The position numbers and the translations under genes were made by a program. A stretch of 50,954 bases of DNA from Citricoccus zhacaiensis. Lineage in GTDB: Bacteria; Actinomycetota; Actinomycetes; Actinomycetales; Micrococcaceae. A model generated the notes under the pieces. That model was not told the origin of the DNA and searched no databases. It saw only the letters and a list, made by a program, of their open reading frames with translations. This document shows, one piece after another, positions 11,097-30,630 of the stretch (position 1 is its first letter; each line of letters begins with the position of its first letter). The DNA lies in NCBI RefSeq assembly GCF_014645315.1, contig NZ_BMLQ01000013.1:1-50954 (forward strand). The letters are read 5' to 3'.

Positions 11097-11442
11097 GGGG
11101 TTCCTCGCCTGCTCGGAACACCACAGGCGGGCGGCCGCAAGCGGCCGGCTGTTTTGTCCTGGTCCGCCGGAACGGCGTCGACCAGGACGCCGGCCCTGAC
11201 GGGCCGGATCTTCTTCGTTTTTTGCTGCTGTCCTTCGGATGATGCGCCCCGGCTCCACCGGCACAAGCCCCTCCTGCGTCGGGGCCGGTTCCCCCGGAAA
11301 CTTCCGGTCGGCGCTCCCTCGTTCCTCGGTCGCTTCTTTCCTCCCGGAACTTTCCTCCTCCACCGCCCTACGGGTTGATGCCGGCTCCGTCCGGGGCAGC
11401 TCACTGCGTTTCGCCAGCAGGCAAAAAAATACGGGGGAACGA
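11097..11442 (+). repeat. R1: ~350-bp structured leader element upstream of DUF4192 operon
   Basis: Non-coding element strongly similar to R2 (30274-30630, opposite strand). In order: a GGCCGC-AA-GCGGCC hairpin (11133-11146); a 33-base hairpin with stems GTCCTGGTC/GACCAGGAC and CGCCG/CGGCG (11156-11188); CCGGCCC-TGAC-GGGCCGG (11190-11207). A ~200-base domain follows, closed by a long-range pairing of TTTTTTGC-TGCTG (11218-11230) with CAGCAGGCAAAAAA (11415-11428). Stems are kept between copies while loops vary. It ends about 50 bp before the DUF4192 ATG. No transposase, terminal repeat or coding bias. Large leader RNA or ssDNA promoter are both possible readings. Confidence 0.75.
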
Positions 11443-11494
11443 CGAAGCGCGGGGCTGGCACCGCGACCCCCTTCACCTATCCGTGGAGGAAGAA

Positions 11495-12463
11495 ATGACC
11501 ACCTTTACCGCTACCACCATCGCTGATGTTCTCGACTACGCCGCCGGAGTTCTCGGCCTACGGCCCACCCATTCGCTGGTCGTGCTGCCGATGCAGGACA
11601 ACGCCTTGGGCCCGGTGCTCCGCACCGATGCCCCCGGCACTGACGTTCCGGCGCAGACCGTGGCGGACTCGATCATCGAGAACCTGTCTCACGCCCTCGC
11701 AGATGGCGCGCTGTTTATCGGGTTCGACGCGGACCCGGCCGTGGTCCAGGCCGTGGCCGAGGCCATGACCAAGCGCGGCCTGCCAATCCACGAAACGATC
11801 CACGTGGCTGGCAACCACTACACCGCGTTCCACGGGACCGAGGGGGAATGGAACCCCGGACAGACCGCGATCGGCCTGGAAACCGCCTACAACCGGGACG
11901 AACGCGACCAGATCCCCGAGTTGCCCACCCCTGCAGGGTTGGCGGCAGAGCCCGCACTGACCGAGCGGGCCCGGCTGGTGCGCACGGACCATGCGGAAGC
12001 CATGACCGAAGTCCGGGGCCTGTGGGCTACCGTCCTGGCCGGAGCCGAGCCGACCCCCGCCCAGATCCGCACCTTGCGGGCCGCGTTCAGCCTCTACGAG
12101 TCCCGGGACCGCCTGCACGCAGACACCTACGGGGCCGGAGACGGGCCCGGGTGGGAAGCGATCTTCACCGGCGACCCGGGCGAGCCGGTGGTATGGGGGA
12201 AGGTCGAAGCCGGAGAGGCCGCCCTGCGCCTGCTGGTCACGCACGCCGACACCGTTGAGGCCGCACACCTGTTGGCCCTGCTGGCACACATCTACTGGAT
12301 GCAGGGACGCGGCACCGCCGCCGGACGAACCGCAGATCGAGCCTGCGAATCCGACGCAGACAACACGTTCGCCCGACTGATCTCCCACCTGACGAACGCC
12401 GGAAAGCTGGCCCCGGTCGCCCGCGACCGAGACCGGGCATGGTCCACGAACCGGCCCCAGTGA
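11495..12463 (+). CDS. DUF4192 domain protein
   Basis: Function unknown; DUF4192 proteins are common on actinobacterial plasmids and chromosomes. 322 residues, beginning 'TTFTATTIADVLDYAAGVLG' with the family's typical 'RPTHSLVVLPM' strand (about 23-33). The C-terminal third resembles a helical TPR-like repeat ('AAHLLALLAHIYWMQGRG', 'AAGRTADRACESDADNTF'). The ATG at 11495 follows GGAGGAAG; the longer frame from 11375 lies within leader element R1 and is rejected as coding. Expression is likely driven through R1. Cytosolic, no membrane segments. Confidence 0.85.
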   Translation: MTTFTATTIADVLDYAAGVLGLRPTHSLVVLPMQDNALGPVLRTDAPGTDVPAQTVADSIIENLSHALADGALFIGFDADPAVVQAVAEAMTKRGLPIHETIHVAGNHYTAFHGTEGEWNPGQTAIGLETAYNRDERDQIPELPTPAGLAAEPALTERARLVRTDHAEAMTEVRGLWATVLAGAEPTPAQIRTLRAAFSLYESRDRLHADTYGAGDGPGWEAIFTGDPGEPVVWGKVEAGEAALRLLVTHADTVEAAHLLALLAHIYWMQGRGTAAGRTADRACESDADNTFARLISHLTNAGKLAPVARDRDRAWSTNRPQ

Positions 12464-12572
12464 TCCCAACCCGGTAACCCGGGGGCGGGGTTATCCACAG
12501 GATGACCCCGTCCCCGGGCGCGACCACCGGGAACCTGCCTACGCTGGGAACAGCCCAACAGCAGGAGCACTA

Positions 12573-12608
12573 GCAGGGACCCCCCGCCCTCCCGGCGGGA
12601 CTCCCTGC
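12573..12608 (+). promoter_or_regulatory. Strong two-part hairpin in the leader of the 12636 gene
   Basis: GCAGGGA (12573-12579) pairs with TCCCTGC (12602-12608) and, inside, CCCGCC (12583-12588) pairs with GGCGGG (12594-12599). It lies 27 bp before the next start codon and could be an attenuator or a terminator for the DUF4192 transcript. Confidence 0.45.
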
Positions 12609-12635
12609 CAAGCGCCACCCACACCAGGAGCCCCC

Positions 12636-13151
12636 ATGAGCGCCACCCCCCACACCATGGCAGGCATGGCCGCCGCCCGCGTCAGCGAGCTGCCCCTGGC
12701 GGCCATCACGATCTACCGTGCCGAACTGCGCGAGGCCCGACGCCCCTCCGGGGCACGGGCACGCACCGGCCTAGCGCTACGCCTGGAAGCAACGATCGCA
12801 ACTCTCTTGGCCGCCGGCTACGCCGCCGCCCACGACCAACCCTGGGCGGCCGTTCCCCTCGGGCTCATCAACCTCGCGATAGTGGCTGGCCCCTTGGCGA
12901 TCACCGCCCTACCAGACTGGATCGCGTGGACTGACAGTAACGGTCACGCCGTGACGATCACCGACCCCAACGCCAAGCCCATCGGGTACTGGAGTCTCGC
13001 TCCAGACCCGAGCGCAACCGGGAGCCAAGTCGAGGCGCACCTAACGGCCATGCTCGAGGGAACGTCACCCGCCGCCGCGACACGGGTGGATCTATTTACC
13101 GCCGAGCGGCACACCGCCCCACCATGGGATACCCGCCACCACACGAACTAA
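12636..13151 (+). CDS. Hypothetical membrane-associated protein, 171 residues
   Basis: No family recognised. The N-terminal third is basic and amphipathic (to about 45), followed by one or two hydrophobic helices (about 50-66 and 70-90). The C-terminal soluble part contains 'SNGHAVTITDPNAKPIGYW' and ends with a His-containing tail. Normal high-GC third-position bias supports coding. It lies 170 bp after the DUF4192 gene, probably the same transcription unit unless the 12573 hairpin terminates it, and is followed by a strong hairpin. Plasmid-backbone hypothetical. Confidence 0.7.
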   Translation: MSATPHTMAGMAAARVSELPLAAITIYRAELREARRPSGARARTGLALRLEATIATLLAAGYAAAHDQPWAAVPLGLINLAIVAGPLAITALPDWIAWTDSNGHAVTITDPNAKPIGYWSLAPDPSATGSQVEAHLTAMLEGTSPAAATRVDLFTAERHTAPPWDTRHHTN

Positions 13152-13201
13152 ACTCAACCCTCCGTACCCCTCCACGGGTACCGGCCCCACAAGGGCCACC
13201 A

Positions 13202-13231
13202 CCGGCCCCGGGTTTCGTCGCCCGGGGCCGG
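13202..13231 (+). terminator. Strong GC hairpin after the 12636 gene
   Basis: CCGGCCCCGGG and CCCGGGGCCGG are a perfect 11-bp inverted repeat with an 8-base loop, about 50 bp after the stop and before the convergent PDDEXK gene. No T-run follows, as is common for actinobacterial terminators. Confidence 0.6.
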
Positions 13232-13324
13232 CCATGCGATAGACCCGGTGACACTGCGGCCACTCCTTGCAAGACACAGCAGCCACCACGGGGGAGCGCC
13301 CCCGGAGTTCCTCGAAGCCGGGGC

Positions 13325-14368
13325 CTAGGATTCCTCGTCAGGTAACGCGTCCAGAGCGGCGATGAGCTGGTCCTCCGCAGGGACCAGATTCCGGTCGGCC
13401 GCCGGCAGTTGATCGTAGGTGTAGGCGGAAACCGCCAGTGGTGACGTTGACCGACCCAAGGCGTATCGGACGGTGTGGTCGTTCTTGCTGCCGCAAATCA
13501 GGATCCCCACCGTGGGCGCGTGAGCCTCGCGCTTGAGCAGGTCATCAACCAGGGCGACGTAGAAGTTCAGCTTGCCGGCATACTCCGGTTGGAACTTGCC
13601 AGTCTTGAGCTCGATGACGAAGCAACGCAGCTGCTCGACGTGGAAGAACAACAGGTCGATGTAGAAGTCATCTCCGTCCACCTCGAGGTGCACCTGACGC
13701 CCCACGAAAGCGAAGCCGTGCCCCAGCTCCCACAACGTCTCGGCGATCCGGTCCATCAGGGCCTGCTCCAGATCACGCTCTGCAACAGCTCCGGACAAGC
13801 CCAAGAACTCAAAGGAATACGGGTCCTTGGCGACCTGCTGCGCCAACTCGGAATCCGGGGCCGCCAGATGGGTGCCGAAGTTCGACGGGGCGGTGCCGGA
13901 ACGCTCCAGGGACCGGTTCATGATCATGTTCATCAACACATTCCGCGACCACCCATGCTCCACGGCCGCGGCAGCATAACGGTCCCGCGCCGACACGGCA
14001 TCGAGCTTATCCAGCAGGACGCGGACGTGGCCCCACGGCAAATGTCCCACAGGCTGTGGGACATTTGGGTCCCAGTCCGGCCACGCCGCGGCGAAAGCCC
14101 GCATGTAGAACAGGTTGCTGCGGGAGAAACCCGTCATCTGGGGGAACTCAGCCCGCAGATCCTGGGCCAACCGGCCAATGACCCCGCTACCCCAGCCCTG
14201 GTGTTGTTGCCGGGTCAGGCTGTCCCGCCCGATCCTCCAGTAGAGCCCGAGCAGGTCCGTGTTGACCCGACGCAAAGTTTGTAGACGGGCGCCCCGGACG
14301 TGCTACTTCAGCCAGGCTAGAAAGGCCGGGTAATCATCGGGCAGGGCGAGCTCAGCGGGATCAGTCAC
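13325..14368 (-). pseudogene. PDDEXK nuclease domain protein (DUF1016/YhcG type), amber codon near N-terminus
   Basis: Predicted DNA-binding nuclease-fold protein of the YhcG/DUF1016 family. Starting from GTG at 14368 the frame reads a family-like N-terminus ending 'PAFLAWLK', then a TAG at 14305-14303, then 'HVRGARLQTLRRVNTDLLG' in the same frame. A GAG or CAG to TAG change is the simplest cause. The remaining open frame (14275 to 13325, 316 residues from an internal ATG) has the DUF1016 N-terminal helical domain and the C-terminal nuclease core: 'DDFYIDLLFFH' (Asp), 'CFVIELKTGKFQPEYAGKLN' (ExK). It may still be made from the internal start, but a full-length product needs suppression. Confidence 0.8.
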
Positions 14369-14874
14369 GGACCGCATCCTATCGACGAAGGCCAGTGCCT
14401 AACCGTTGAGCTCCCGCGTAGTGCGATCAACATTTGGAACGCCACGAACAGTCAACAACCTGGACCGCTGCCGCCCACTAGAGGACTGTGGCGATCCCTC
14501 TCGAAAGAACGGCCGCTACAGTCCTCCAATGGTCAGCACCAGACAGAAGATGGTCAGGAGAGCAAAAGCTCGAACGCAAATGGACCGAGAAGAAAGATAC
14601 TCGCCCCAGTCCACGTGACCCATCGGGGGAGAGGTAGGCGCCGGGCCAACATCAGATTGACCCACATGAAGACGGGCACAAGAATCAGCAGCCATGCTGC
14701 GCCGATACTCAACCCCAGACCCGGGGAATCCAACTGGCGATAACCGATAGGACCGAAATAGTGAAGCAGGGCGAGATAGGCCATCCCCAACGGAACATAA
14801 CTCACCAGCCCGAACATCAGTGAATCGCCCTGGGTTTCTTGGAGACTCCTGACCTTGGAAACGAGGATGGGGTT

Positions 14875-15219
14875 ATGCCGAAGGACATCTCGCAGGATCA
14901 GCCGACCACGCGTCGGTACAGCGCGGAGGAGAAGGCCGCGGCGGTACGCATGGTCCGTACCCTGCGCGCTGAGCTGGGTACCACTCAGGGCACCGTGAAG
15001 CGGGTGGCTGAACAGCTCGGTTACGGGACGGAGTCGGTGCGGACCTGGGTCAAGCAGGCCGACGTCGATGACGGCCACACTCCGGGCGTCACCACCGATG
15101 AGGCCGCGAGAATGCTGGCTTTGGAGCAGGAGAATCGCGAGTTGCGCCGCGCCAACGAAATTCTCAAGAGGGCTGCTTCTTTCTTCGGGGCGGAGCTCGA
15201 CCGCCAACACAAGAGATAG
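14875..15219 (+). CDS. IS3-family transposase OrfA
   Basis: DNA-binding subunit of an IS3-family transposase, 114 residues from ATG 14875. The helix-turn-helix (about 15-60, 'YSAEEKAAAVRMVRTL', 'RVAEQLGYGTESVRTWVKQ') and a leucine-zipper-like C-terminus ('MLALEQENRELRRANEILKR') are typical. The frame is open to 14839. OrfB lies in the -1 frame and overlaps its end, so OrfAB would be made by programmed frameshifting near the pyrimidine run at 15177-15186. Intact. Confidence 0.88.
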   Translation: MPKDISQDQPTTRRYSAEEKAAAVRMVRTLRAELGTTQGTVKRVAEQLGYGTESVRTWVKQADVDDGHTPGVTTDEAARMLALEQENRELRRANEILKRAASFFGAELDRQHKR

Positions 15220-15920
15220 TCGCCTTCATCGACGCCAACCGGCACGAGTTCTTCGATGGCCACAAGCTCGGAGTCGAGCCCATCTGCACCGCCCTGCGCC
15301 AAGCAGGAGTGCAGGTGGCTCCGAGCACGTACTACTCCGCGAAGTCCCGTGCACCCTCCGTGCGATCGAAACGGGATGCGGTGATGGCCCCGATCGTGCG
15401 GCAGCTGTGGGAGGAGAACTACCGGGTCTACGGGGCTCGGAAGATCTGGAAGGCCGCCCAGCGCGCCGGCCACCAGATCGGACGGGACCAGGTGGCCCGT
15501 CTCATGAGTGCCGAGGGAATCGAAGGAGTGCGACGAACCAAGAGGGTACGGACCACCCGCCCGGATCCTGAAGCGCCCCGTCACCCTGACCTGGTGGGCC
15601 GACAGTTCACCGCCGAGACGCCAAACCAGCTGTGGGTCACCGACCTGACCTATGTGCCGACCTGGGCCGGCGTCGCCTACGTGTGCTTCATCATCGACGC
15701 CTGCTCGCGCGCGATTGTCGGCTGGCGGGTCGCCTCGCACATGCGGACCTCCATGGTCCTGGATGCAATCGAGATGGCCCGCTGGTCCCGCGGCACCACA
15801 CTGACCGGCTTGCGCTGCCATAGCGATGCAGGATCGCAATTCACATCGATTCGCTACGGGGAGCGGCTGGCCGAGATCGGGGCGGTGCCCTCGATCGGCA
15901 CCGTCGGCGACAGCTACGAT

Positions 15921-16176
15921 TGTCAGTCTGTTTCTGCCGCGTCCCGCAAGGATGAGGTAGTCCTGGCCGGAGTGTTCTGACCCTTGCTTACGATTGGCCC
16001 GTAGGGTGCCTTGGCGTTGATCTGTCGAGCCTCCGGCCGGGCGCAGTACCGCTGCCGCCGGATCGGGCGTGACCTGATAGGAGCCTGGAGCCTCGTCAAA
16101 GCGTCCCCATGACAGTCCTGTCCACCCGCCGGCGACAGCGTGAGACCACGCTAACCGGTGAAGGAGACAGCACCCC
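15921..16176 (+). ncRNA. Candidate IS110 bridge RNA region
   Basis: IS110-group elements encode a bridge RNA in the non-coding end upstream of the transposase; this is established for IS621. Here the 256 bp before the ATG carry short matches to the reconstructed target. GATAGGAGC at 16076-16084 equals the nine bases across the target junction (GAT at 15918-15920 joined to AGGAGC at 17255-17260). TACGAT at 15989-15994 equals the six bases ending at the core. Assignment of the guide arms is inference; I could not fold the RNA. Confidence 0.5.
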
Positions 16177-17247: not shown

Positions 17248-17659
17248 CAACTATAGGAGCATCAACGCCCTGGCCGAGACCGTGAATGGCTACTACAAGG
17301 CCGAACTGATCCGCGGGCCCGCCCGCGAAGGGCGCCCGTGGAAGACCGTCGAGGACGTCGAGCTCGCCACCCTCAGCTGGGTCCACTGGCACAACCAGAC
17401 CCGCCTGCACGGCTACCTGAATGACGTGCCGCCAACAGAGTTCGAGGAAACGTTCTACGCTACGAAGCGGACCGACCAGACCTTGGTCGGAATCCAATAG
17501 AACGAGTCTCCATCAGACCCAGGGCGATTCACAGGTTCGCTGCGACCCACACGAGCGGTGCCCACAACCATGACTGCCACCAAGATGTTCTCAGCGATCC
17601 ACTAGGTGTTGCTGGGCTTTGATCAGCCATGGTATCTACCTTGCTTTCCGCCTCGACAC

Positions 17660-17854
17660 GTTGGCCAGCTCGCACTCGAGGCATGCCGCACATTCGACAC
17701 CGGAGAACTGAAAGCTGTACTGCGTGGCTACCAAGCCGGCTACAACGCCAGGGCCAGCGAACTCGGGGACTACGTCGTCCGCTGGATCGAAATCAAATAC
17801 GGCATCAACGGGGCTGCCGAAGAGGAAGCCCGGATCATCCTGGCCGCGCTATAG
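17660..17854 (+). pseudogene. C-terminal fragment of a paralogue of the 28190 gene
   Basis: About 60 residues from 'LALEACRTF' to 'ARIILAAL' match the C-terminal part of the protein at 28190-28939 ('GYNARASELGDYVVRW' versus 'GYNARAADLGDYVVRW'). The homologous N-terminal region is absent; upstream sequence is unrelated and includes the promoter side of the split membrane gene. It is a truncated duplicate or the remains of a second backbone module. A start at 17606 is possible but not supported. Confidence 0.6.
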
Positions 17855-17881
17855 ACCCCATTGATTGCCAGCATCTCACTG

Positions 17882-18139: not shown

Positions 18140-18170
18140 GGCGCATCCCTCTTTGTGCGGTGTCAATGGA

Positions 18171-18515: not shown

Positions 18516-18572
18516 TCTTGTCTCTCCAAGGTGCGTAATGAGTCCCAGGCTGTGTTTGTTTGCGAGTGAGAG

Positions 18573-19134: not shown

Positions 19135-19225
19135 GGATCGCCATGGTGACGTCGGAGGTGTTCCGTAGGGGGATGCTCCAGCGGGTCTCCGCGGTTCAAT
19201 TGGTCCAACGTTGCACGATTATTCG

Positions 19226-21679: not shown

Positions 21680-23827
21680 GTGTCACGACTGACCGACCTT
21701 ATCCGTCAGGCCAAGGAGAAGGACCCTGCCCTTGGCCAGGACCTTGAAGCTGAGTTCGCGGCGTTGTCGAGCCGTCGGCAGTTTGGCCTGAACTTCGAGC
21801 GTCACCAGCCCGAAGCCGTGGAGCTTCCGGGACGCATGCCCCGAAAAGGCGACAAGGTCCGGGTCCTCCCGCCGCGCGGTTCCACTATTGCCGGGGACCA
21901 GCGACTCTGGAATGTCGCCGGCATCGCGTCAGTGGATGGCATGGATCTTGCTCGCCTCCAGATCACGGACGACAACGGCGCTGTGCTCGAAAGTGCAGAC
22001 CAGCCCGTTGACGACGTCATAGTCGTAGCCGAGTTTCGCGATCCCATCTATCCAGGACTCGTATCCACTGGGCGGGTGGAGCGCGGTGGCGGCAAACCCC
22101 ATCACGCCGTCATCAACGCAGAGAACTTTCACGCTCTCCAGACACTCCAGTTCACCCACCGCGGCAAGGTCGACGCGATCTACATCGACCCGCCCTATAA
22201 CACCGGAGCTAAGGACTGGAAGTACAACAACGATTACGTTGACGGCGAGGACATCTATCGCCATTCCAAGTGGTTGGCGTTCATGGAACGTAGGCTCAAA
22301 GTCGCCCGCGAGCTTCTCAATCCTGATGACTCTGTCCTTATCGTCACGATTGATGAGAAGGAAATCCATCGCCTAGGGCTCCTTTTGGAGCAAACCTTCC
22401 CAGAAGCCTCAGTTCAGATGGTCAGTGCAGTGATTGCTCCGCAGGGGAGCAGCCGGGGTGTCGCTTTCAAACGGTCTGAAGAGTACATTTTCTTTGCCCT
22501 GTTCGGTGCTGCCAGCGTGACACCCCTGCGTCTCGGACCCGAGTGGGGAGGGTCTAACCCCACCAAGACCGTACGCGGAGCGATTCACTGGGCAAGTTTG
22601 AAGCGTACTGGCACCGGAGCCACCAGGGCAGATCGACCTGGGATGTACTATCCCATATTTGTTTCTGAGAATGGCGCTGGATTCCATTCCGTCGGCCACC
22701 CTTTGGGATCCCACGAGGCGCGTGAAGACATCCCTGTTCCACCCGGCTGCGTAGCTGTCTGGCCGATTCGACGAGATGGTTCAGAAGGTCGGTGGCAGGT
22801 CGGGCCGGATTCCCTCGAAGAACTGTTTTCCGTGGGCCACGCCAGGCTAGGGAAAGCTAATGGCGAGAACACTGCTATCGCCTACCTAAAGAGTGGGGAG
22901 CGTAAGAAGATCCTCTCCGGCGAGTACATAGTGACCGGTCGTCGGAGCGATGGCTCCGTAATAACTGACCATGAAGAGAACTCAGACTTTGGAGCGGAGC
23001 ATCGTCCAACGACAGTCTGGAATGTAGGCAGCCATAGTGCGGGTCACCACGGTTCCAATCTGCTTAGGGTTCTCCTGCCGGGGCGCAAGTTCCCCTTCCC
23101 TAAGTCCCTCTACGCAGTCGAGGATGCGCTGCGTTTCTTCATCAAGAACAAGCCGAATGCCGTGGTGCTGGATTTCTTCGCGGGATCAGGGACTACGGCA
23201 CACGCAGTGATGCGCCTCAACAAGCAGGATGACGGGCAGCGGCAGTGCATCTCGGTAACTAACAATGAGGTGAGCGCCGACGAACAGGGGCGCCTCCGGA
23301 GAACAGGCCTTAGACCCGGAGACTCCGAGTGGGAGGTGCACGGAATCTGCGACTACATCACGAAGCCGAGAATTGAAGCTGCCATCACGGGCCGCACGTC
23401 GAGCGGAGATCCAATCAAGGGCGACTACAAGTTCACCGATCAATTTTCCATGGCTGAGGGCCTTGATGAGAACGTGGAGTTCTTCACGCTGACCTATGAG
23501 TCGCCCTGGCGTGTGGCAAGGGGTCGGGCCTTCGACGCAGTGGCGCCGTTGCTGTGGATGCGTGCCGGGTCCGAGGGGCAGCGGATCGACGAGATTCCGG
23601 CGGCGGGCTGGGACATGGTCGATGTGTACGGCGTCATCGCGGACCTGGACCAGACAGGACCGTTCCTGGAGGCGGTGACGTGCTCGGAGCGGGTGCGAAT
23701 GGTGTTCGTCGTGACCGATGACGACCGGGCCTTTCAGTCGGTGTGCGCGGTACTTCCGGAGCGGGTGGAGCCGGTGCGGTTGTACGAGTCGTATTTGCGG
23801 AATTTCGAGATCAAGGGACGGGACTGA
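21680..23827 (+). CDS. mod: Type III restriction-modification DNA adenine methyltransferase (Mod)
   Basis: Modification and recognition subunit of a type III RM system, 715 residues from GTG 21680 (GAGAAGGGA upstream). It is a beta-class amino-methyltransferase: catalytic motif IV 'YIDPPYNTGAKDW' at about 167-180, then a long target-recognition region (about 190-495), then SAM motif I 'VVLDFFAGSGTTAHAV' at about 493-508. GC is around 55% until about 23,490 and then jumps to about 68% like the Res gene, so the recognition part looks imported. Four bases separate it from the helicase gene, so they are one operon. Confidence 0.92.
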   Translation: MSRLTDLIRQAKEKDPALGQDLEAEFAALSSRRQFGLNFERHQPEAVELPGRMPRKGDKVRVLPPRGSTIAGDQRLWNVAGIASVDGMDLARLQITDDNGAVLESADQPVDDVIVVAEFRDPIYPGLVSTGRVERGGGKPHHAVINAENFHALQTLQFTHRGKVDAIYIDPPYNTGAKDWKYNNDYVDGEDIYRHSKWLAFMERRLKVARELLNPDDSVLIVTIDEKEIHRLGLLLEQTFPEASVQMVSAVIAPQGSSRGVAFKRSEEYIFFALFGAASVTPLRLGPEWGGSNPTKTVRGAIHWASLKRTGTGATRADRPGMYYPIFVSENGAGFHSVGHPLGSHEAREDIPVPPGCVAVWPIRRDGSEGRWQVGPDSLEELFSVGHARLGKANGENTAIAYLKSGERKKILSGEYIVTGRRSDGSVITDHEENSDFGAEHRPTTVWNVGSHSAGHHGSNLLRVLLPGRKFPFPKSLYAVEDALRFFIKNKPNAVVLDFFAGSGTTAHAVMRLNKQDDGQRQCISVTNNEVSADEQGRLRRTGLRPGDSEWEVHGICDYITKPRIEAAITGRTSSGDPIKGDYKFTDQFSMAEGLDENVEFFTLTYESPWRVARGRAFDAVAPLLWMRAGSEGQRIDEIPAAGWDMVDVYGVIADLDQTGPFLEAVTCSERVRMVFVVTDDDRAFQSVCAVLPERVEPVRLYESYLRNFEIKGRD

Positions 23828-23831
23828 ACCG

Positions 23832-26453
23832 GTGCGGTACACGCTGAAGGACTACCAGGCCGACGCAGTCCGGGACGTGCTGTCCAACCTGGCCGATGCG
23901 CGCAAGCGTTTCCATCTGCTCGGGGACCGGTCCCAGTTCGCCCTGACCGCCACCACGGGAGCGGGCAAGACGGTGATGGCCGCGGCCGCGATCGAGGCTT
24001 TGTTCTACGGGGACGAGGAGTTCGACGTCGCTCCGGACCCCTCGGTGGTGGTGTTGTGGTTCTCGGACGACCCGAACCTGAACGAGCAGACCCGGTTCCG
24101 GCTGATGGCCGCCTCCGACAAGCTCAAGCACTCGGACCTGGTCACCATCCAGCACCCGTTCTCGGTGGAGAAGCTGCGACCGGGCAAGGTCTACTTCCTG
24201 AACACCGGCAAGCTCACCAAGACCTCTCTGCTGACTCGCGGCCACGATCAGGGCGATGAGACCACCCAGATTCCGGGGCTGCGGGAGCTGGCGGCCCCGG
24301 ACCTGCAGGGGTACACGGTCTGGGACACCCTGGCTAATACCATCGAGGACTCAGAGCTGACCCTCGTGATGGTCCAGGACGAGGCCCACCGGGGCTTCGG
24401 GACCAAGGCGACCCGGGATAAGGCCACCATCGTGCGCCGGCTGATCGACGGCCACGCGCACGTGCCGCCGATGCCGGTCGTGTGGGGGATCTCCGCGACC
24501 GTGCAGCGCTTCGAGGCCGCCATGGACGAGGCCAAGCTGACCGGACACCGGTTCCCGCTCCCGCGGGTGTCGGTGGACCCGGCCCGGGTGCAGGAGTCCG
24601 GGCTGCTCAAGGACACCATCGCTCTGGACATCCCCGCCGAGACCGGGTCCTTCGACACCGTTCTGCTGGCCCGGGCCACCCGCAAGGCCGTGGAGTCCAC
24701 CCGGGCCTGGGCCGAATACGCGGCTTCCCAGCCGGCGGACGCTGCAGGGTCCACCGCCGACCCGGTGGTGCCGTTGATGGTGCTGCAGGTGCCGAACACC
24801 CCGGACGAGGAGCTGTACGTCCGGGCCTTGGACACGATCTTCGAGCAGTGGCCGGGACTGTCCGAGGACGCCGTCGCCCACGTACTCGGCGACCACTCCA
24901 TCCAGCAGTGGGGCCCCTACCAGGTCCGCTACGTCGCCCCGGAGCGGGTCCAGGACACCACCGAGGTGCGCGTGCTGATCGCCAAGGAGGCGATCTCCAC
25001 CGGCTGGGATTGCCCGAGGGCCGAGGTCTTGGTCTCCTTCCGGCCGGCCAAGGACGCCGTGCACATCACCCAGCTGCTCGGGCGCATGGTCCGCACACCG
25101 CTGGCCATGCGGATCCCCGGCAACGAAAAGCTCAATGCCGTCGAGTGCCTGCTGCCGCACTTCGACCGCCGGACCGCCGAGACGGTGATCAAGGTCCTCA
25201 CCGCCGGCTCCGAGGACTTCCCCGACTCCGGTGGGGAACGCAAGGTGTTGATCGACCCGCAGGAGTTTGGGCCCAACCCGCACCTACCCGAGGCCGTCTG
25301 GGAGGCGCTGGACGCCATCCCGTCCCAATCGTTGCCGCGCAAGGGTGCCAAACCGATCAAGCGTCTGCTGGCCTTGGCGCACGCGCTGGCCACCGACGGG
25401 ATCCGCCCGGATGCCGGCAAGCAGGCACTGGCCGAGCTGTGCGCTGTCCTGGACGGCTGCGCCGCCCGCTACCGGACGGAAGTGGACCAGGCCGTGTCGG
25501 ATGTGTGGACCGTGGAGGGCGAGACCGTCGTCGGGACCTACGGGGCCGCCTCCACCTCGATCGAGCGGTTCACCGCGGCCGCCGACGATCGGGCCATTAT
25601 GGCCGCGTTCCGGGATGCCGGCCGGGTGCTGACCCAGGCCGTGGCCGGGGCTTACGTGGACCGGTTGGCCGGCCCGGAGGACCCGAACACGGACGACGAC
25701 GGGCTGCGCGACGCCCACGCCACCACCGCGGCGCTGGCCCTGGTGCGTCAGGTCCGCGAGGACCTGGACCGGGAGGCCGATGCTCTCACCATGAAATGGT
25801 TCGACGAACACCGGGTGGCCATCCTGGACGTCTCCGATGAACGACTAGCGGAGTACAACGAGATCCGGGCCATGTCCACGGACCCGCAGCGCATGGTGAT
25901 CAGCCGGCCCAAGAACGTCATCGCTGAGACCAAACGGCCCGGTCTGGACGGTGCCGAGCCCGAACCGGTTCCCACCCAGCGGCTGCACCTGCTCTCCGAC
26001 GGGCAAGGGGATTTCCCGGTCGGGGACCTCAACGACTGGGAACTCAACGTCCTGCACGCGGAGATGGAACGCCCCGGGGCCGTGGCCTGGTACCGCAACC
26101 CGGCCCGCAGCGCCCAGGAGGCGGTGTCCGTGGCCTACCAGGACGGCACCGGCGACTGGCGCACCCTGCGCCCGGACTTCGTCTTCTTCGACACCGCCCC
26201 CGGCAGCGAGACCCTAAGGGCCTCCCTGGTGGACCCACACTCCCACCACCTCGCCGACGCCCTGCCCAAGCTCCGCGGCCTGGCCCGCTTCGCCGCCGAA
26301 TACGGCGACGAGTTCCACCGCATTGAGGCCCTGACCCAACTGGAGGGCAAGCCGCGGGTACTGAATATGAAGGACGAATCGGTCAGGGACGCCGCGGAGA
26401 AGGCGACCTCGGCACAGGCGCTCTACGAATCGGTCTGGGCCCAGAACTACTGA
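23832..26453 (+). CDS. res: Type III restriction-type DEAD/DEAH helicase-nuclease (Res)
   Basis: ATP-dependent translocase/restriction subunit partner of Mod, 873 residues. Start GTG 23832 with AAGGGACGGG just upstream; the longer frame from 23718 lies inside mod. Superfamily-2 motifs: Walker A 'TATTGAGKTVMAA' (about 36-48), DEAH-type box 'VMVQDEAHRGFG' (about 180-190), 'WGISATVQRF' (motif III), motif VI 'QLLGRMVRTPL'. Near the C-terminus 'LRPDFVFF' (about 779-786) looks like the start of a PD-(D/E)XK site, but the second half reads 'SLVDPHSHHL', so the usual Glu-x-Lys is not seen. Cleavage competence is therefore uncertain. Confidence 0.9.
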   Translation: MRYTLKDYQADAVRDVLSNLADARKRFHLLGDRSQFALTATTGAGKTVMAAAAIEALFYGDEEFDVAPDPSVVVLWFSDDPNLNEQTRFRLMAASDKLKHSDLVTIQHPFSVEKLRPGKVYFLNTGKLTKTSLLTRGHDQGDETTQIPGLRELAAPDLQGYTVWDTLANTIEDSELTLVMVQDEAHRGFGTKATRDKATIVRRLIDGHAHVPPMPVVWGISATVQRFEAAMDEAKLTGHRFPLPRVSVDPARVQESGLLKDTIALDIPAETGSFDTVLLARATRKAVESTRAWAEYAASQPADAAGSTADPVVPLMVLQVPNTPDEELYVRALDTIFEQWPGLSEDAVAHVLGDHSIQQWGPYQVRYVAPERVQDTTEVRVLIAKEAISTGWDCPRAEVLVSFRPAKDAVHITQLLGRMVRTPLAMRIPGNEKLNAVECLLPHFDRRTAETVIKVLTAGSEDFPDSGGERKVLIDPQEFGPNPHLPEAVWEALDAIPSQSLPRKGAKPIKRLLALAHALATDGIRPDAGKQALAELCAVLDGCAARYRTEVDQAVSDVWTVEGETVVGTYGAASTSIERFTAAADDRAIMAAFRDAGRVLTQAVAGAYVDRLAGPEDPNTDDDGLRDAHATTAALALVRQVREDLDREADALTMKWFDEHRVAILDVSDERLAEYNEIRAMSTDPQRMVISRPKNVIAETKRPGLDGAEPEPVPTQRLHLLSDGQGDFPVGDLNDWELNVLHAEMERPGAVAWYRNPARSAQEAVSVAYQDGTGDWRTLRPDFVFFDTAPGSETLRASLVDPHSHHLADALPKLRGLARFAAEYGDEFHRIEALTQLEGKPRVLNMKDESVRDAAEKATSAQALYESVWAQNY

Positions 26454-26506
26454 CACGTCACTTCAGCAGCACCGCCGACTGATTTGGGGCCGGTTCCGAG
26501 ATTTGC

Positions 26507-27037
26507 TTAGGAATCGACCATCTCGTAGTCGTCCCGCTCGATCGCCTCGAACCAGGCGTTGCCTGAGTCGACGACCTCTGCGTAGTACTCGTTGCCCGCT
26601 GTGCCGTCTTCGATCAGGACATGGGTGGCCAGCACCTGGGACTGGAACTGCAGCTCCGCCAATTCCACGTTTCCCCGACAAGGGCCGACAGAGTTCTCGT
26701 TGGAGTCAAAGGCGTCTTTCACGGACTCGTTGAAGCTCTCTACCATGTCCCCGTGGTCGCCAGCCCCCTGGGAGGCCACGACCAGTTCCCAGCCCATCGA
26801 GATGATTCCCACGCGCATCTCCCCCAGGCACTCATTCTCGGCACGGGATGACTCCGCCACCGGTTCGGCCGGGGTGCTAGCAGGTGTGCTGGAGGCCGAG
26901 GGTCTCGGGGACACGGAGGACGACGCCGAGGAAGGCGCGGCAGCGTCAACGGTGTCACTGCCCTGACTACACCCTGCGGCGGACAGAGTCACGGCCAGGG
27001 CTGCGGCGGACAAGATGATCGGACGAATGAACTTCAT
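26507..27037 (-). CDS. Lipoprotein, hypothetical
   Basis: 176 residues with a lipoprotein signal: basic start 'MKFIRP', hydrophobic core and lipobox 'LSAAGC' (Cys23). A Ser/Pro/Ala linker (about 35-62) precedes a soluble acidic domain with two cysteines ('ENECLGEM' and 'VGPCRGN') that may form a disulfide. The family is not recognised. It lies convergent with the Res gene. It is attached to the outer face of the membrane; function unknown. Confidence 0.8.
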   Translation of the reverse strand: MKFIRPIILSAAALAVTLSAAGCSQGSDTVDAAAPSSASSSVSPRPSASSTPASTPAEPVAESSRAENECLGEMRVGIISMGWELVVASQGAGDHGDMVESFNESVKDAFDSNENSVGPCRGNVELAELQFQSQVLATHVLIEDGTAGNEYYAEVVDSGNAWFEAIERDDYEMVDS

Positions 27038-27206
27038 GAGTGATGCCCCTCTACGGTGCCCGGGTGGGGATACGTGCGCACACCGTCCCCGGACTCAAGC
27101 GATGGCGAATCGTGCCGTGATTCGGCGTCCTTGATACCGGAAACACGAAGCGGACAGCCAGGATTCGGACGGCACATGATCAGGCCAGGCCCAGGCCCAG
27201 ACACGT

Positions 27207-27615
27207 TTAGCTGGCACCTCCCTCCATGACGATCGTCCTTCGGCCATTCGAGTGGCGGATCACCACATTGCTGAACGTGTTCCCTGCTGCTTCGTCACGG
27301 ACGACGTCCCACCAGCCGTGGGACTTGGAATCGATCTTCGGCTTGCCGATGGCGCCGATGCGGGTGATGCGAGTAATGCCGGCAGCGTAGGCGCGGGCGT
27401 GCCGGGCTGAGCGGGGCCCGTAGCCCGCGTGGCCGCGGTGGCGGAGCATCCTAACGACGATCACAAGGCCGAGGCCATTCTTGATGGTGGACCAGACCCG
27501 GACAGGCCCCCTGGGTGCTGGGCACGACGGCGGACTCTCCCGCGGGGTCCGCCCAGAGCTTCCATCCCGGCACGACGAGGACGTTGACGATAGGCAGCGG
27601 AACGGACGAACTCAC
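27207..27615 (-). pseudogene. Frameshifted hypothetical backbone gene
   Basis: The open frame 27464-27207 (85 residues, ending 'RTIVMEGGAS') has no good start. Reading upstream in a neighbouring frame gives plausible coding sequence from GTG 27615, including 'VVPGWKLWADPAGESAVV'. The switch lies near the run of five C/G at 27507-27511. After a one-base correction the product would run '..PVRVWSTIKNGLGLVIVV' into the 85-residue part. The joined protein is not a family I recognise. A sequencing error in the homopolymer is the alternative. Confidence 0.4.
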
Positions 27616-27657
27616 CTCCGGGAGCGCCAGTTCCCTACCTGTGTGCGGGGACCCTGA

Positions 27658-28026
27658 TCACGACTTAGGGGCGTCGTACCAGCGCACGACGCCGTTGGCG
27701 GAGTGGGCGGCCATGATGGCTTGGGTGGCGTCGGCCAGCGCGGACGCTGCCTGCCGGAGCTGCTCGGCAGCGGTCACGGTGCCGGTGGCGCCGTCCCCGC
27801 GGTCGTCCTCTCCCTCGTAGTGGGTGCCGTCAGCCACACCGTCATGCCAGGTGGCGAGTTGCTGGCAGACCTGGGAAAGGTGGTCGGTGGTGGCGTTCAG
27901 TTCTCCCAGCAAGCGGTACGAGTCGCTGGGGACCGGGACGGTGCGGGTGGAGTGCGCCAGGACACGGGCGGCTTGCTCCAGTTCGGCTGCGATCTCGGCC
28001 TGACGGTGGTCTTCATTGATGGCCAT
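27658..28026 (-). CDS. Hypothetical plasmid-backbone protein, 122 residues
   Basis: No family recognised. It is mostly helical and acidic ('AEIAAELEQAARVLAHSTR', 'AAEQLRQAASALADATQAIM'), with no signal peptide or membrane helix. ATG at 28026 is preceded by AGGGAG. It lies about 160 bp downstream of the HTH gene at 28190-28939 on the same strand and probably belongs to the same long minus-strand unit that begins at leader R2. Confidence 0.65.
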   Translation of the reverse strand: MAINEDHRQAEIAAELEQAARVLAHSTRTVPVPSDSYRLLGELNATTDHLSQVCQQLATWHDGVADGTHYEGEDDRGDGATGTVTAAEQLRQAASALADATQAIMAAHSANGVVRWYDAPKS

Positions 28027-28189
28027 CGGTATTTACTCCCTATCGGTTGGGTCTACTGCTGTGGCCTTGGGCCAGATGTACCGTTGCCGTCCACCGCCCC
28101 CCAAATGCGGCGGCTGGTCGCCAGTCTAGGAAGCACGGCGGACACCGGAGGGGGCGGCGGGGGCGGCGGGGGCCTGCATGGCGAAACTC

Positions 28190-28939
28190 CTAGTCGAGCG
28201 GCTGGGGTTTGATTGCTTCGATGATGGCGCGGGCTTCTTCGTCGGTAGCCCCGGGCAGCGCCCACTCGATCCCGTTCGCAATTTCGGGCCAGCGGACCAC
28301 GTAGTCCCCGAGGTCGGCGGCGCGCGCGTTGTAGCCGCCCTGATAGCCGCGCACCACGGCGAGCATTTCCTCGGCCCCATAGGTCCGGTATGCCTCAAGG
28401 ACCAGCCTGCCCGTGTCGTCTCCGGGATGATGTGCGTCGCCCACGGTGGATGCCGGGGCTCCCTCGGAAGCATGTGCAAGGTCGGCTGCGTATTGGCCCA
28501 CTTCCTGGGCTCGCACGATCAGATTATTCAGCGATGACATCGGGCTTTCCTCACGTTCTGTCTTGATCCGTTTCCTGTTGATGGCTCCGACGGCCACGAC
28601 GCTAACGGAGTGCCCTCCGTCGTCTGCGTCGGTCCATCTGAAGGGGGCCCCGGCAGGAATCCGCTCTGGTGCATGAGCCCAGATGGCCTGCTCGGCCTCC
28701 ATGTACTCTTCCGGCGTCCCCCACGACGGAGGGGTGAGAGGGCCGAGACTCGGCCTCAGGTTCCGAGCGACCGTACTTTTCGGCACCCGGAGCTTCGCGG
28801 CTGTCTCCCGCACGGACATTCCAGCCATGTACGCGGCGTGAACGGCCTGTCGCAGTAGCCGAGCCTCCTGGTATTGCCCGATACTGGCGCGTCGGCGCGC
28901 GACCTCGAAGGCCTGCTCAATCGTTGTGAAATCTGACAT
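28190..28939 (-). CDS. HTH-containing protein, probable self-regulated backbone regulator
   Basis: 249 residues from ATG 28939. The N-terminal part has a helix-turn-helix ('MAGMSVRETAAKLRVPKSTV', about 40-60). The C-terminal part ('EAYRTYGAEEMLAVVRGYQ' onward) is the region duplicated at 17660-17854. An internal ATG at about residue 134 ('MSSLNNLIV') is preceded by GAGGAAAG, so the C-terminal half may also be made separately, or two genes have fused. Two identical palindromes lie 22-62 bp upstream, suggesting autoregulation. Family not recognised. Confidence 0.7.
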   Translation of the reverse strand: MSDFTTIEQAFEVARRRASIGQYQEARLLRQAVHAAYMAGMSVRETAAKLRVPKSTVARNLRPSLGPLTPPSWGTPEEYMEAEQAIWAHAPERIPAGAPFRWTDADDGGHSVSVVAVGAINRKRIKTEREESPMSSLNNLIVRAQEVGQYAADLAHASEGAPASTVGDAHHPGDDTGRLVLEAYRTYGAEEMLAVVRGYQGGYNARAADLGDYVVRWPEIANGIEWALPGATDEEARAIIEAIKPQPLD

Positions 28940-28960
28940 GACAGCCACCCCCATTCCTTC

Positions 28961-29001
28961 TGTCCCACCGTGGGACAGTATTAATGTCCCACGGTGGGAC
29001 A
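28961..29001 (-). promoter_or_regulatory. Twin palindromic operators upstream of the HTH gene
   Basis: TGTCCCAC-C-GTGGGACA (28961-28977) and TGTCCCAC-G-GTGGGACA (28985-29001) are perfect 17-bp palindromes, 24 bp centre to centre, with an AT-rich TATTAAT between them that can act as a -10 box. A half-site-like CGGTGGGTC follows at 29013-29021. This is a classic arrangement for a dimeric repressor, most simply the adjacent HTH protein. Confidence 0.7.
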
Positions 29002-29019
29002 GTAATGGTCAACGGTGGG

Positions 29020-29706
29020 TCAATGGGTTTCGGGGGGGTGCTGGTAGTGCGGGCACTCGGGGTTGGCGACTCCGATGCTGTAGCCGGGGCTGGCCGAATC
29101 GAACGGACCGGCGGCGCTGCTGTGGCTTCGGGTTGCGGCGGCGGAGTGCCGGCAATCCCTCCACGGCGCTCCGGCGGCCTGCCACGCGGCAGGGTAGTCA
29201 TCCGGGACGAGGTAGCGGGGTTTGTCCGGGCTCTTGCCCGGGCACAGCACGGGCAGGGCGTCCCAGCCCGGCCAGCAGTGGTCCAGGTACTCGGCCACGG
29301 CATCGGCCTCTGCCTCGTGGACTCCACTCCACCACTGGCACCCGTCGCACCACACCCGGTGGTAGTAGCCACCCACGTCCTGCAGGCGTTCCCTAATGCT
29401 CTGGCGCTGGGCTGCGACGGCGCGGAAGAGCCGGGCGGACCGCAGGTCGGCCGTGAACATCGCGGATGCGTGCGGGTGGCCCTTGCCGCCGTTGACGCTG
29501 GTCAGGTCCAGCCGCCAGCCGCGCCAGGGTCGCCAGGCGTCCCCGCGCAGTCGTCCGTAGTCGGCCCTCCACTGGTCTTCCAGCTCGGCCAGCTCGGCCG
29601 GGGTGAGCTCGAGGCGGAACCCCTCGGCCGGCCCCGTCGGAGTCGGCAGCAACTCGGTCAGCAGCTGCAGCGCGTCGAGTTGTCCAACCACCGCCGTCCG
29701 CTTCAT
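29020..29706 (-). CDS. DUF6349-like plasmid-backbone protein
   Basis: 228 residues from ATG 29706, which overlaps the redoxin stop (ATGA). Central region with Cys/Trp/His residues: 'YYHRVWCDGCQWW', 'YLDHCWPGWDALPVLCP'. The two CxxC-like positions could bind a metal. The pattern matches proteins I associate with DUF6349 in actinobacterial mobile DNA; function unknown. The longer frame up to 30135 runs antisense to the redoxin and is rejected. Same operon as nrdH and the 88-residue CPFC protein behind leader R2. Confidence 0.7.
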   Translation of the reverse strand: MKRTAVVGQLDALQLLTELLPTPTGPAEGFRLELTPAELAELEDQWRADYGRLRGDAWRPWRGWRLDLTSVNGGKGHPHASAMFTADLRSARLFRAVAAQRQSIRERLQDVGGYYHRVWCDGCQWWSGVHEAEADAVAEYLDHCWPGWDALPVLCPGKSPDKPRYLVPDDYPAAWQAAGAPWRDCRHSAAATRSHSSAAGPFDSASPGYSIGVANPECPHYQHPPETH

Positions 29707-29945
29707 GCCTTCACCACCTGGGCCAGCTCTTCGATCTTGTCCGGGCGGAAGCCGGACCAGTGATCGCCGGTCGCGGTCACGACCACGGGGGCCTGCATGT
29801 ACCCCAGGGTCCGGATCCGCTCCAGGGCGTCGACGTCCTGAGACAGGTCTACGGTTTCGTAGTCGATGCCCTTCTTCTCGAGGGCGCGGTAGGTGGCGTT
29901 GCACTGTACGCAGTCGGGCTTGCTGTAGACGGTCACGGTGGTCAT
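29703..29945 (-). CDS. nrdH: NrdH-type glutaredoxin-like redoxin
   Basis: Small thiol-disulfide carrier, 80 residues, thioredoxin fold. The active site is CVQC (C12-C15, 'YSKPDCVQCNATYRALEKKG'), the cis-Pro loop 'MQAPVVV' and the C-terminal 'WSGFRPDKIEEL' are typical of NrdH, which reduces class Ib ribonucleotide reductase. No nrdE/nrdF is present, so in this backbone it may serve plasmid replication needs or another reductase. Good ribosome-binding site (AAAGGACC). Overlaps the next gene. Confidence 0.9.
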   Translation of the reverse strand: MTTVTVYSKPDCVQCNATYRALEKKGIDYETVDLSQDVDALERIRTLGYMQAPVVVTATGDHWSGFRPDKIEELAQVVKA

Positions 29946-29977
29946 GGTCTGGTCCTTTCCAGTATTGACTGTCGCGG

Positions 29978-30244
29978 TCAGTGACTGCGGATGAGGTCGG
30001 GGTCGATGCCGTCGCCGAACTCGGCTCCGGGGTAACAGCGGGGGTGAATGCCGCTGATGATTTGTTCACGGAGCCGGTAGTCGAGCTCGGGTAGAGCGTC
30101 CTGGACGGGCTGGCCGTCCATGAGTGCGTCCGCACCGGTCTGGGGGATGGTGATCCATCCCTGCTGGTGGCAGAACGGGCACACCGGGGTCAGGATGTCG
30201 GCGTAGCCCTCTTGCATGCTGTCGTAGATCGCGTGGTGACTCAT
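29978..30244 (-). CDS. Hypothetical small protein with CPFC motif
   Basis: 88 residues from ATG 30244, the first gene after leader element R2. It contains 'PVCPFCHQQGWITIP' (a CxxC knuckle) and 'GIHPRCYPG'; three cysteines and several histidines could form one zinc site. No family recognised. First gene of the R2 operon, followed after 32 bp by nrdH. Confidence 0.7.
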   Translation of the reverse strand: MSHHAIYDSMQEGYADILTPVCPFCHQQGWITIPQTGADALMDGQPVQDALPELDYRLREQIISGIHPRCYPGAEFGDGIDPDLIRSH

Positions 30245-30273
30245 CTGGGGTTCCTCTCGCCGTGGGGGGGTGT

Positions 30274-30630
30274 GGGTCGTTCCTCTCCCCCGTTGTTTTT
30301 TGCCTGCTGGCGAAACGCAGTGAGCTGCCCCGGACGGAACCGGCATCAACCCGAAGGGCGGGGGAGGAGAAAAGCTTGGGGAGGAAAGAAGCGACCGAGG
30401 AACGAGGAAGCGCCGACCCCAGGTTTTCGGGGGGAGCCGGCCCCGGAGCGCCAGCGGAGGGGCTTGTGCCGGTGGAGCCGGGGCACATAATCCGCAGGAC
30501 AGCAGGCAAAAAATGGAGGTCGGCCCGCTAGGGCCGGCGTCCTGGTCCGTCGCCGTTCCGGCGGACCAGGACAAGCAGCCGGCCGCTTGCGGCCGCCCGC
30601 GAGTGGGGTTCCGAGCGAGCGAGGGACCCC
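30274..30630 (-). repeat. R2: ~355-bp structured leader element upstream of the CPFC-nrdH operon
   Basis: Second copy of R1 on the minus strand, similar over its whole length. Conserved parts: GGCCGC/GCGGCC hairpin (30581-30594), the large GTCCTGGTC/GACCAGGAC hairpin (30539-30572), CGGCCC-GCTA-GGGCCG (30521-30536). A perfect 14-bp closing stem joins 30296-30309 and 30500-30513 around 190 bases. It ends 30 bp before the ATG at 30244. No open frame is shared by the copies, so conservation is structural. Confidence 0.75.

Follow-up and report, generated by a model that had tools for sequence, protein, structure and literature searches.

The two related non-coding elements R1 and R2, found in a window of 50,954 nt from Citricoccus zhacaiensis (contig NZ_BMLQ01000013.1, the whole stretch of DNA that was analysed), are each probably a single-strand DNA promoter, judging from sequence comparisons, and would resemble the Frpo elements of the F plasmid in action while being unrelated to them in sequence. 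They belong to a family, borne by conjugative plasmids of Arthrobacter-like soil bacteria, which by computation has a conserved fold, carried by the template strand of the gene that follows, DNA-type hairpin loops, invariant promoter boxes, a constant orientation to the relaxase gene and recurring families of led genes. The reading that these features suggest is that genes of the leading region would be expressed from the transferred strand (T-strand) as it enters a recipient cell.

The elements, their family and the genes they lead

The elements are about 345 nt long and are named by the direction of the gene they lead. R1 (11097-11442, plus strand) and R2 (30286-30630, minus strand) are 87% identical across 342 of the 346 query bases (BLAST, E=2.5e-112), and a MAFFT alignment of both with their flanks, 487 columns in length, has a mean column identity of 85%, so that the first-pass annotation was right to describe them as alike over their full length. 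It had also placed their ends 30-55 bp before the first genes, which agrees with the distances found here: 52 nt from the end of R1 to the ATG (11495) of a DUF4192 gene (11495-12463, plus; PF13830, E=1.5e-17; ATG with GGAGG upstream), and about 30 nt from R2 to the ATG (30244) of the gene given the name CPFC in that annotation (29978-30244, minus), which matches no Pfam family. The hairpins with the same stems and different loops (TGAC and TAGC) that it reported are present in the sequence, as is the 14-bp pairing of R2 (30296-30309 with 30500-30513). A third copy, which it missed, lies on another contig of the same genome (C16:2811-3151) and leads a gene of the CPFC family as well (tblastn, 76%).

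Searching 72,556 plasmid records with R1 (blastn, E<=1e-5) gave matches in 46 of them, all from Micrococcaceae, and in most of these the match runs roughly from position 113 to 342 of R1, which takes in the 200-nt domain but not the upstream hairpins. Among 197 Micrococcaceae genomes 49 have BLAST matches, some of them partial; since several of the 107 element rows are matches of only about 30-100 nt, this figure sets a ceiling for near-complete copies. A covariance model detects weaker relatives in other families of the Micrococcales and outside that order, but many of the matches outside Micrococcaceae span the apical part alone, and the data on promoter boxes given below come from copies of at least 90 bits. 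A pattern scan of the genomes found at least 119 stretches, 80 of them listed. The set of copies used for most counts comprised 93 rows, with 89 copies at 90 bits or more, and 82 sequences were left once near-duplicates and stretches shorter than 350 nt had been removed.

An open reading frame lies near 84 of the 89 copies (start codons were chosen by a simple rule), and it begins 38-86 nt past the end of the core domain in 68 of the 84. The led genes are of the DUF4192 family (27), an unknown family (14), ParB (10), CPFC (6), DprA (5) and others. On the MOBF plasmid pChr15, copies immediately precede dprA, DUF4192 and ParB, and at three loci (L194, L296 and L298) they immediately precede ArdC, while at L149 ArdC is on the opposite strand; 9 of 20 regions examined had no match to the query genes. 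If the element were a short mobile repeat, or an attC-like recombination site that folds, and had no regulatory role, the many copies per plasmid and the folding of one strand would be accounted for, but copies would hardly be expected to stand before the same few gene families again and again in a strict orientation. There was also no match to the element among 50,697 phage records and no exact match, in viral contigs, of the one pattern searched, and a phage element was rejected on these results. The mobile repeat or recombination site is extremely improbable. Nothing noticed in the homologues, in comparisons made for other purposes, looked like decayed coding sequence or the end of a transposon.

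A conserved fold on the template strand

When folded as DNA and compared with 100 dinucleotide shuffles per strand, R1 is more stable than expected on both the template strand (z=-4.5) and the gene strand (z=-4.6), with no shuffle as good, and R2 somewhat less so (z=-3.1 and -2.5, with one shuffle as good on each). A stable single-strand fold, as in Frpo and ssi elements, is thus found by computation. The first-pass annotation had proposed looking for covarying pairs in homologues, and the fold does covary strongly. In an alignment of 49 sequences, 92.0% of cells are paired, compared with at most 49.3% when the partners are slid, and the covariation score is 0.487 against 0.172 +/- 0.010 in shuffles; 267 cells have changed on both sides against 87.8 +/- 9.9, and neither value is reached by any of 500 shuffles. 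The number of pairs changed on both sides (20) is barely above that in shuffles (17.1), 11 of 500 reaching 20.

The core domain of R1 lies at 11218-11427 on the minus strand, the template of DUF4192 (covariance model, 188 bits), and that of R2 at 30297-30512 on the plus strand, the template of the CPFC gene (164 bits); both sequences were part of the model alignment. According to the family fold and DNA folding, helix P1 of R1 is formed by a 5' arm at 11412-11429 (minus), the template half from which RNA would be copied outwards, and a 3' arm at 11218-11233 (minus), the non-template-like half; the corresponding arms of R2 are at 30296-30312 and 30497-30513 (plus).

The strand that folds can be read from wobble pairs. 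For this test the structure was found with G-U pairs forbidden, and 52 of 55 element pairs and 100 of 103 RNase P pairs were used. Read on the gene strand, the element has gained 38 G.T against 79 A.C changes (p=1.9e-4), or 11 against 25 when counted by pairs (p=0.03), and since A.C gains exceed G.T gains there, the wobbles belong to the template strand. As a control, RNase P RNA of the same bacterial family was taken from 30 genomes (one row being an untrimmed stretch of 2882 nt), and it favours its own sense strand by 73 gains to 25. Gains of other mismatches are commoner in element pairs than in RNase P pairs (139 against 38). It is the template strand of the led gene that folds.

The loops are of a kind that suits DNA. 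Hairpin A, on the template strand, has the form TCC-GAA-GGA with a GNA triloop in R1 (11231-11239, minus; read from the letters beside the -10 box, the automatic match having chosen another site at 11339-11348) and TCC-GCA-GGA in R2 (30491-30499, plus). Its loop is GNA or GNNA in 75 of 82 copies, with one other and six unresolved. RNA tetraloops follow the GNRA rule, and the four-base loops of hairpin A go against it, having C at the third position in all 18 cases, within GNNA. Hairpin B (CCC-GTA-GGG, a GNA triloop, at 11366-11374, minus, in R1; CCC-GAA-GGG at 30350-30358, plus, in R2) has GNA or GNNA loops in 62 copies of 82, with nine unresolved and 11 of another type; its GNNA loops number 22, of which 9 are also compatible with GNRA. 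The apical hairpin (11311-11333, minus, in R1; 30391-30413, plus, in R2) has in R1 two tandem GA/AG steps and a GAA loop, the GA pairing being read from the letters. DNA mini-hairpins that have GNA or GNNA loops and at least two G-C pairs are described as extraordinarily stable (PMC4686876).

These results bear on the two alternatives that the first-pass annotation had left side by side, a leader RNA acting in cis and a single-strand promoter like Frpo. A structured leader RNA on the gene (+) strand would be well placed just upstream of start codons and would have a conserved fold, but the wobble asymmetry is reversed, and the loops and GA steps fit the other strand. The wobble test, in which RNase P as positive control came out for its own strand, gave no indication of a structure conserved on the gene strand. 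Rfam likewise gave no family match, whether for the whole window at curated cut-offs or for R1 alone at a low threshold, where the lone match reached 13.5 bits against a cut-off of 46.7; a known RNA class was rejected on these searches, just as the element had been recognised as none before. A leader RNA on the gene strand was rejected on the wobble test and the loop types, and this alternative is left with a very low probability. The other alternative, a Frpo-like promoter, is supported at the level of sequence by the template-strand fold and the DNA loops, together with the boxes, the relaxase orientation and the leading-region type of the genes.

Promoter boxes and orientation to the relaxase gene

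On the template strand, all 82 copies have a -35 and a -10 box with a spacer of 16 nt. Within the -10 box (NANNNT) A2 and T6 are present in all 82, and within the -35 box (TNGNNN) T1 is found in 80 and G3 in 81; TTG occurs in 54 of the 82 and TA...T in 57. The boxes of R1 itself are mediocre (TTGTGC at 11261-11266, in a helix that is paired in the family fold, and CATCAT at 11239-11244, in an internal loop, both minus), and R2 has TTGTGC at 30464-30469 and CATAAT at 30486-30491 (plus). Across the family fold the -35 columns are paired and the -10 columns are unpaired save for the last T. This placement was picked after viewing the alignment, and a scan of 4080 placements on both strands served as control: the chosen placement scores 8.38 out of 12, and the best unrelated one 5.35. 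Since the boxes belong to the folded strand and the -10 stands open in a loop, this strand, the template of the gene, would when folded be a promoter itself and direct transcription into the gene. In Frpo and ssi elements, too, folding of the single strand restores boxes that face the led gene; here this feature is found in the sequence.

In duplex DNA the same -35/-10 pair is directed away from the led gene. If the boxes were an ordinary duplex promoter of divergent or antisense type, and the fold arose as a side effect or served to bind a protein, their invariance in that direction would be explained. Such a promoter, however, needs neither a covarying fold, nor GNA/GNNA loops, nor any constant relation to the gene lying on the opposite side, and this explanation is quite unlikely. 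A duplex promoter toward the gene was rejected, the best placement on the gene strand being the 5.35 just mentioned.

In 29 contigs out of 29 the element has the same strand as the relaxase (p=4e-9 on the assumption of independent contigs, which does not quite hold for related plasmids). The relaxase follows downstream at no more than 30 kb in 23 of these, and in the other six there is none in that range. The count used all 107 element rows and 62 relaxase rows, an earlier subset of 83 of the 107 giving 29 of 29 as well, and the relaxase search, with two Pfam families, covered 38 of the 49 genomes with an element match. One contig (G038:C13) has three copies 20-25 kb downstream of the relaxase. 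In two Citricoccus plasmids, copies that have diverged and score weakly (21 and 12 bits) stand next to the relaxase or mobC; they have kept the boxes and are directed away from the relaxase. Conserved inverted repeats upstream of mobC (six aligned sequences) and mobF (seven) are candidate origins of transfer; on the folded strand of the mobF set a hairpin is followed on its 3' side by the conserved core, an arrangement known from other oriTs, but the signal is too weak to settle which strand is nicked. The window's own contig has no match to either of the two relaxase families, and R1 and R2 are an exception within the family in lying on opposite strands, so that at most one of them could work on a given T-strand.

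If the folded strand is the T-strand, as the shared orientation of copies and relaxase suggests, it would fold back on itself over about 200 nt after entering the recipient. Its 3' half would take the part of the non-template strand, with the -35 box in a paired helix, the 16-nt spacer and the -10 box in an internal loop, and its 5' half that of the template, helix P1 directing RNA polymerase, presumably with sigma-A, out of the structure and into the gene beside it. In this way the genes of the leading region (DUF4192, ParB-like, DprA, ArdC, DUF3560, CPFC and others) would be expressed before second-strand synthesis. Conversion to duplex would then turn the promoter off, since in duplex form the boxes are directed away from the gene.

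A folded structure on what is likely to be the T-strand could instead serve mainly to prime synthesis of the complementary strand, as an ssi- or sso-type site with its position beside a gene incidental; the title of a paper by Masai and Arai (1997) presents Frpo itself as active in transcription and in the synthesis of primer RNA alike. Such a site would require neither the short, fixed gap before start codons (38-86 nt, as above), nor several copies per plasmid each with its own gene, nor a complete -35/-10 pair, and priming as the main function is unlikely.

The single-strand promoter, if real, could turn on protective genes once the first strand of a plasmid enters a new cell, and would be a case in which the secondary structure of DNA, not RNA, is visibly selected in alignments. 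The covariance model also offers a route to leading regions and to their uncharacterised genes, among which DUF4192, DUF3560, CPFC and a family of 156-aa proteins are candidate anti-defence or establishment factors.

Comparison with known systems

Repeats located 5' of DUF4192, DprA and ParB genes on conjugative Arthrobacter plasmids are credited to a 2016 paper (cited in PMC10494377 and PMC6305408), and these are very probably the same objects. The passages that cite them deal with partitioning, conjugation and common ancestry, and mention no fold, strand or promoter.

Another parallel is found in the EGeRS of pLS20-family plasmids, which are repeated regulatory sequences before establishment operons on conjugative plasmids of Gram-positive bacteria. 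They differ in that their authors, in the relevant passage, hold a single-strand promoter to be highly unlikely, among other reasons because the pLS20 T-strand is the non-template strand (PMC8708921).

A further likeness is to Frpo1 and Frpo2 of F and the ssi promoters of ColIb-P9, which are also long, non-coding, folded single strands with -35 and -10 boxes, occur more than once per plasmid, each leading an operon, are accompanied by ParB-like and anti-restriction genes, and lie on the strand of the transfer genes. In the gene table of F, ssb, a ParB-like gene and psiB are upstream of traM, traJ and traY on the same strand, and the ParB-like protein has marginal similarity to that of Arthrobacter (E=0.002). 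The stretch before ssb has a strong fold (z=-7.1); a scan of it with a threshold of 9 of 12 found no promoter box, and for this reason a box-by-box likeness to Frpo is not claimed. As for differences, no DNA similarity was detected, R1 matching only Micrococcaceae plasmids at E<=1e-5, and the F stretch folds as one long rod whereas the element forms a branched domain with GNA hairpins. The hosts also differ, being actinobacterial here. The Frpo promoters of F have been tested in vivo (PMC9849209), and in the literature found, experimentally shown single-strand promoters come from enterobacterial plasmids only (F and ColIb-P9). It can tentatively be suggested, as a possibility somewhat short of even, that the elements are an independently evolved actinobacterial class of such promoters, made of covarying structured DNA with GNA/GNNA mini-hairpins and working as a switch that would express establishment genes when single-stranded and antisense RNA when duplex; a non-homologous family of this kind would mean that early expression from the incoming strand has evolved more than once.

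The elements, their hosts and the genes behind them

The first-pass annotation had claimed two similar elements in the window, and these are real: R1 (11097-11442, plus strand), which leads a DUF4192 gene, and R2 (30286-30630, minus strand), which leads the gene for the protein named CPFC, are 87% identical. A third copy lies on another contig of the same genome (C16:2811-3151), and the genes behind it and behind R2 encode one small protein family (CPFC), for which a Pfam search gave no match. In an Rfam scan of the window no family attained its cut-off at R1 or R2, and a low-threshold search of R1 returned a single match of 13.5 bits (cut-off 46.7). Since R1 and R2 are on opposite strands, the window's plasmid looks rearranged, or one copy out of use; several insertion sequences surround them. 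An ALIL pseudoknot (RF01497, 53.8 bits), a frameshift element of IS3-type transposases, was found by Rfam at 15174-15323. The window also carries a YhcG-type PDDEXK nuclease gene (13325-14275), adjoining genes for an N6_N4_Mtase DNA methylase and a ResIII helicase between R1 and R2 (21680-26453), a pair that resembles a restriction-modification system, and, at 35565-40911, a Mu-type transposase accompanied by TniB, behind which comes an IS21-like pair.

By BLAST, R1 matched at 90 sites in 46 of the 72,556 plasmid records, the hosts being Arthrobacter (29), Pseudarthrobacter (8), Paenarthrobacter (5) and Citricoccus (4), and 27 of the 46 were typed as conjugative; the phage records searched gave no match. 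The element was present in six of eight genomes of the genus and, partial matches included, in 49 of the family's 197 (17 of its 32 genera). Across the order, 25 of 396 genomes matched a covariance model made with 49 copies, and 15 of these lie outside the family; across the class 10 of 394 did, four of them (one weak) outside the order. Many distant matches are restricted to the apical part of the model. The copy of Rhodococcus sp. KRD162 (locus L186), before ParB, scores 196 bits, level with Arthrobacter copies, and may be a recent transfer or contamination. Among the matches listed, four loci that fit the pattern exactly (L199, L203, L213, L227) come from records titled Vibrio cholerae, Spirosoma (a MAG) and Sporosarcina; perhaps these assemblies are contaminated with Arthrobacter DNA.

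Behind 84 of 89 copies an ORF of 60 aa or more begins within 200 nt, and 68 of the 84 start 38-86 nt past the end of the core. Judged from blastp clusters, and from Pfam for at least one member, the families led are DUF4192 (27), a family of 156 aa that matches nothing in Pfam (14; L051 8511-8978 and 13 relatives) and is the second commonest gene behind the element, ParB (10), CPFC (6), DprA (5), DUF3560 (2), and ArdC, DUF3846 and DUF6573 (one each), the remainder being small or doubtful. Outside the family, ParB lies behind the copies at L151 and L153, DprA at L151 and at L157 (a weak copy), and DUF3560 460 nt beyond the copy at L152, while ArdC follows directly at L296 and L298 and about 1 kb on at L145 and L156. 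At the Nesterenkonia locus L194, copy, ArdC and relaxase follow one another on one strand. When 20 regions around copies were searched with query genes, none matched in nine.

The folded core and its strand

In 82 dereplicated copies the core is closed by a long helix, P1, and has inner helices and several hairpins. For the covariation test, 49 copies were aligned separately with MAFFT. Paired cells made up 92.0%, against at most 49.3% with partners slid, and the covariation score was 0.487 against 0.172 +/- 0.010 in shuffles; the structure came from the tested alignment itself, which biases both in its favour, but both margins are large. Pairs changed on both sides, a weaker measure, numbered 20 of 30 against 17.1 in shuffles (reached by 11 of 500).

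A strand-specific fold tolerates G.T (G.U) on the folded strand, and such a pair appears as A.C on the complement. Wobble gains were counted on a tree, with G-U forbidden in the structure and only pairs common to both strands used. Read on the gene strand, the element gained 38 G.T against 79 A.C (p=1.9e-4; by pairs, 11 v 25, p=0.03), whereas the same procedure applied to RNase P RNA (30 genomes of the family) gave 73 against 25 in favour of its own sense strand (p=1.3e-6). As the control returns the correct strand, the A.C excess points to the template strand of the gene led as the folded one. Other mismatches gained by pairs numbered 139 in the element against 38 in RNase P.

On the template strand, hairpin A reads TCC-loop-GGA with a GNA or GNNA loop in 75 of 82 copies (one other, six unclassed), and the loops of hairpin B fit in 62 (11 other, nine unclassed). 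Hairpin A has a four-base loop in 18 copies (GTCA 9, GCCA 7, GACA 2), always with C as the third base, contrary to the RNA tetraloop rule, GNRA, but compatible with the GNNA rule described in PMC4686876 for stable DNA mini-hairpins; in hairpin B, 9 of 22 four-base loops are compatible with GNRA as well. The apical hairpin is GCGA-C-GNA-G-GAGC in many copies, with GCGAAGC or GCGCAGC inside its short forms and the GA step doubled in Citricoccus; on our reading the GA steps would be paired. The fold is unlikely to be that of an antisense RNA, since the only conserved promoter found on the template strand sits within the core, close to the 3' end.

Promoter-like boxes and orientation

That promoter consists of -35-like and -10-like hexamers with a spacer of exactly 16 nt in 82 of 82 copies. 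A2 and T6 of the -10 hexamer are invariant (T1 in 57 of 82), and the -35 hexamer has T1 in 80, G3 in 81 and TTG in 54. The position was picked after inspecting the alignment; in a control, among 4080 placements scored against TTGACA/TATAAT (both strands, spacers 15-19), it ranked top, with 8.38 of 12 and the next unrelated placement at 5.35. The -35 columns are paired and the -10 columns unpaired apart from the last T. In the folded single strand the predicted promoter would aim into helix P1 and outwards into the gene; in the duplex it would point away from it.

For orientation, all 107 element rows of the family BLAST were set against 62 relaxase matches in 38 genomes. On all 29 contigs with both, element and relaxase are on a single shared strand; 23 of these contigs have a relaxase no more than 30 kb downstream of a copy and six do not; counted by copies, the nearest relaxase within 30 kb is downstream of 34 and upstream of four. 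Several element matches occur on 25 contigs, all on one strand in 23, the exceptions being the window and G170:C1, a genome contig with two matches of about 40 nt each, 555 kb apart. Plasmid pChr15 has copies directly before dprA, DUF4192 and ParB, oriented toward MobF, and a fourth, likewise oriented, about 680 nt before a DUF3846 gene, the gene table used being incomplete. Similar layouts with another relaxase type occur on pSI-1, which has five copies in the stretch examined, one of them adjoining an IS110 gene, and on pJ340-69, which has two. Against the shared orientation stand two Citricoccus plasmids with weak, diverged copies pointing away from the relaxase, L301 13611-13783 on contig G000:C10 of the window's own genome (21.3 bits, adjoining the relaxase) and L303 34698-34870 on NZ_CP133843.1 (12.2 bits, adjoining mobC); both keep TTGACC-16-TACCCT. 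The DNA that separates the leading cluster from the relaxase contains conserved inverted repeats, candidate oriT sites, upstream of mobC/relaxase at six loci (L044, L071, L074, L079, L082, L083) and of mobF at five (L051, L063, L069, L075, L076).

Comparison with known systems

Repeats at these gene positions have been noticed before: a 2016 paper is cited, in passages of PMC10494377 and PMC6305408, for DNA repeats 5' of DUF4192, DprA and ParB. A literature search, with most subscription journals outside its scope, found no paper linking single-strand promoters with actinobacteria. According to PMC9849209, Frpo1 and Frpo2 of plasmid F are 92% identical, each ahead of leading genes, and are believed to reconstitute -10 and -35 boxes as single strands; in their absence early expression was not seen for the genes tested. 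The ArdC of R388 is described in PMC7213743 as required in recipients and not in donors. The relaxase usually lies in the lagging region, as stated in part of PMC11541004; if that holds here too, the folded strand would be both T-strand and template. This assignment is opposite to that of pLS20, whose T-strand is the non-template strand according to PMC8708921.
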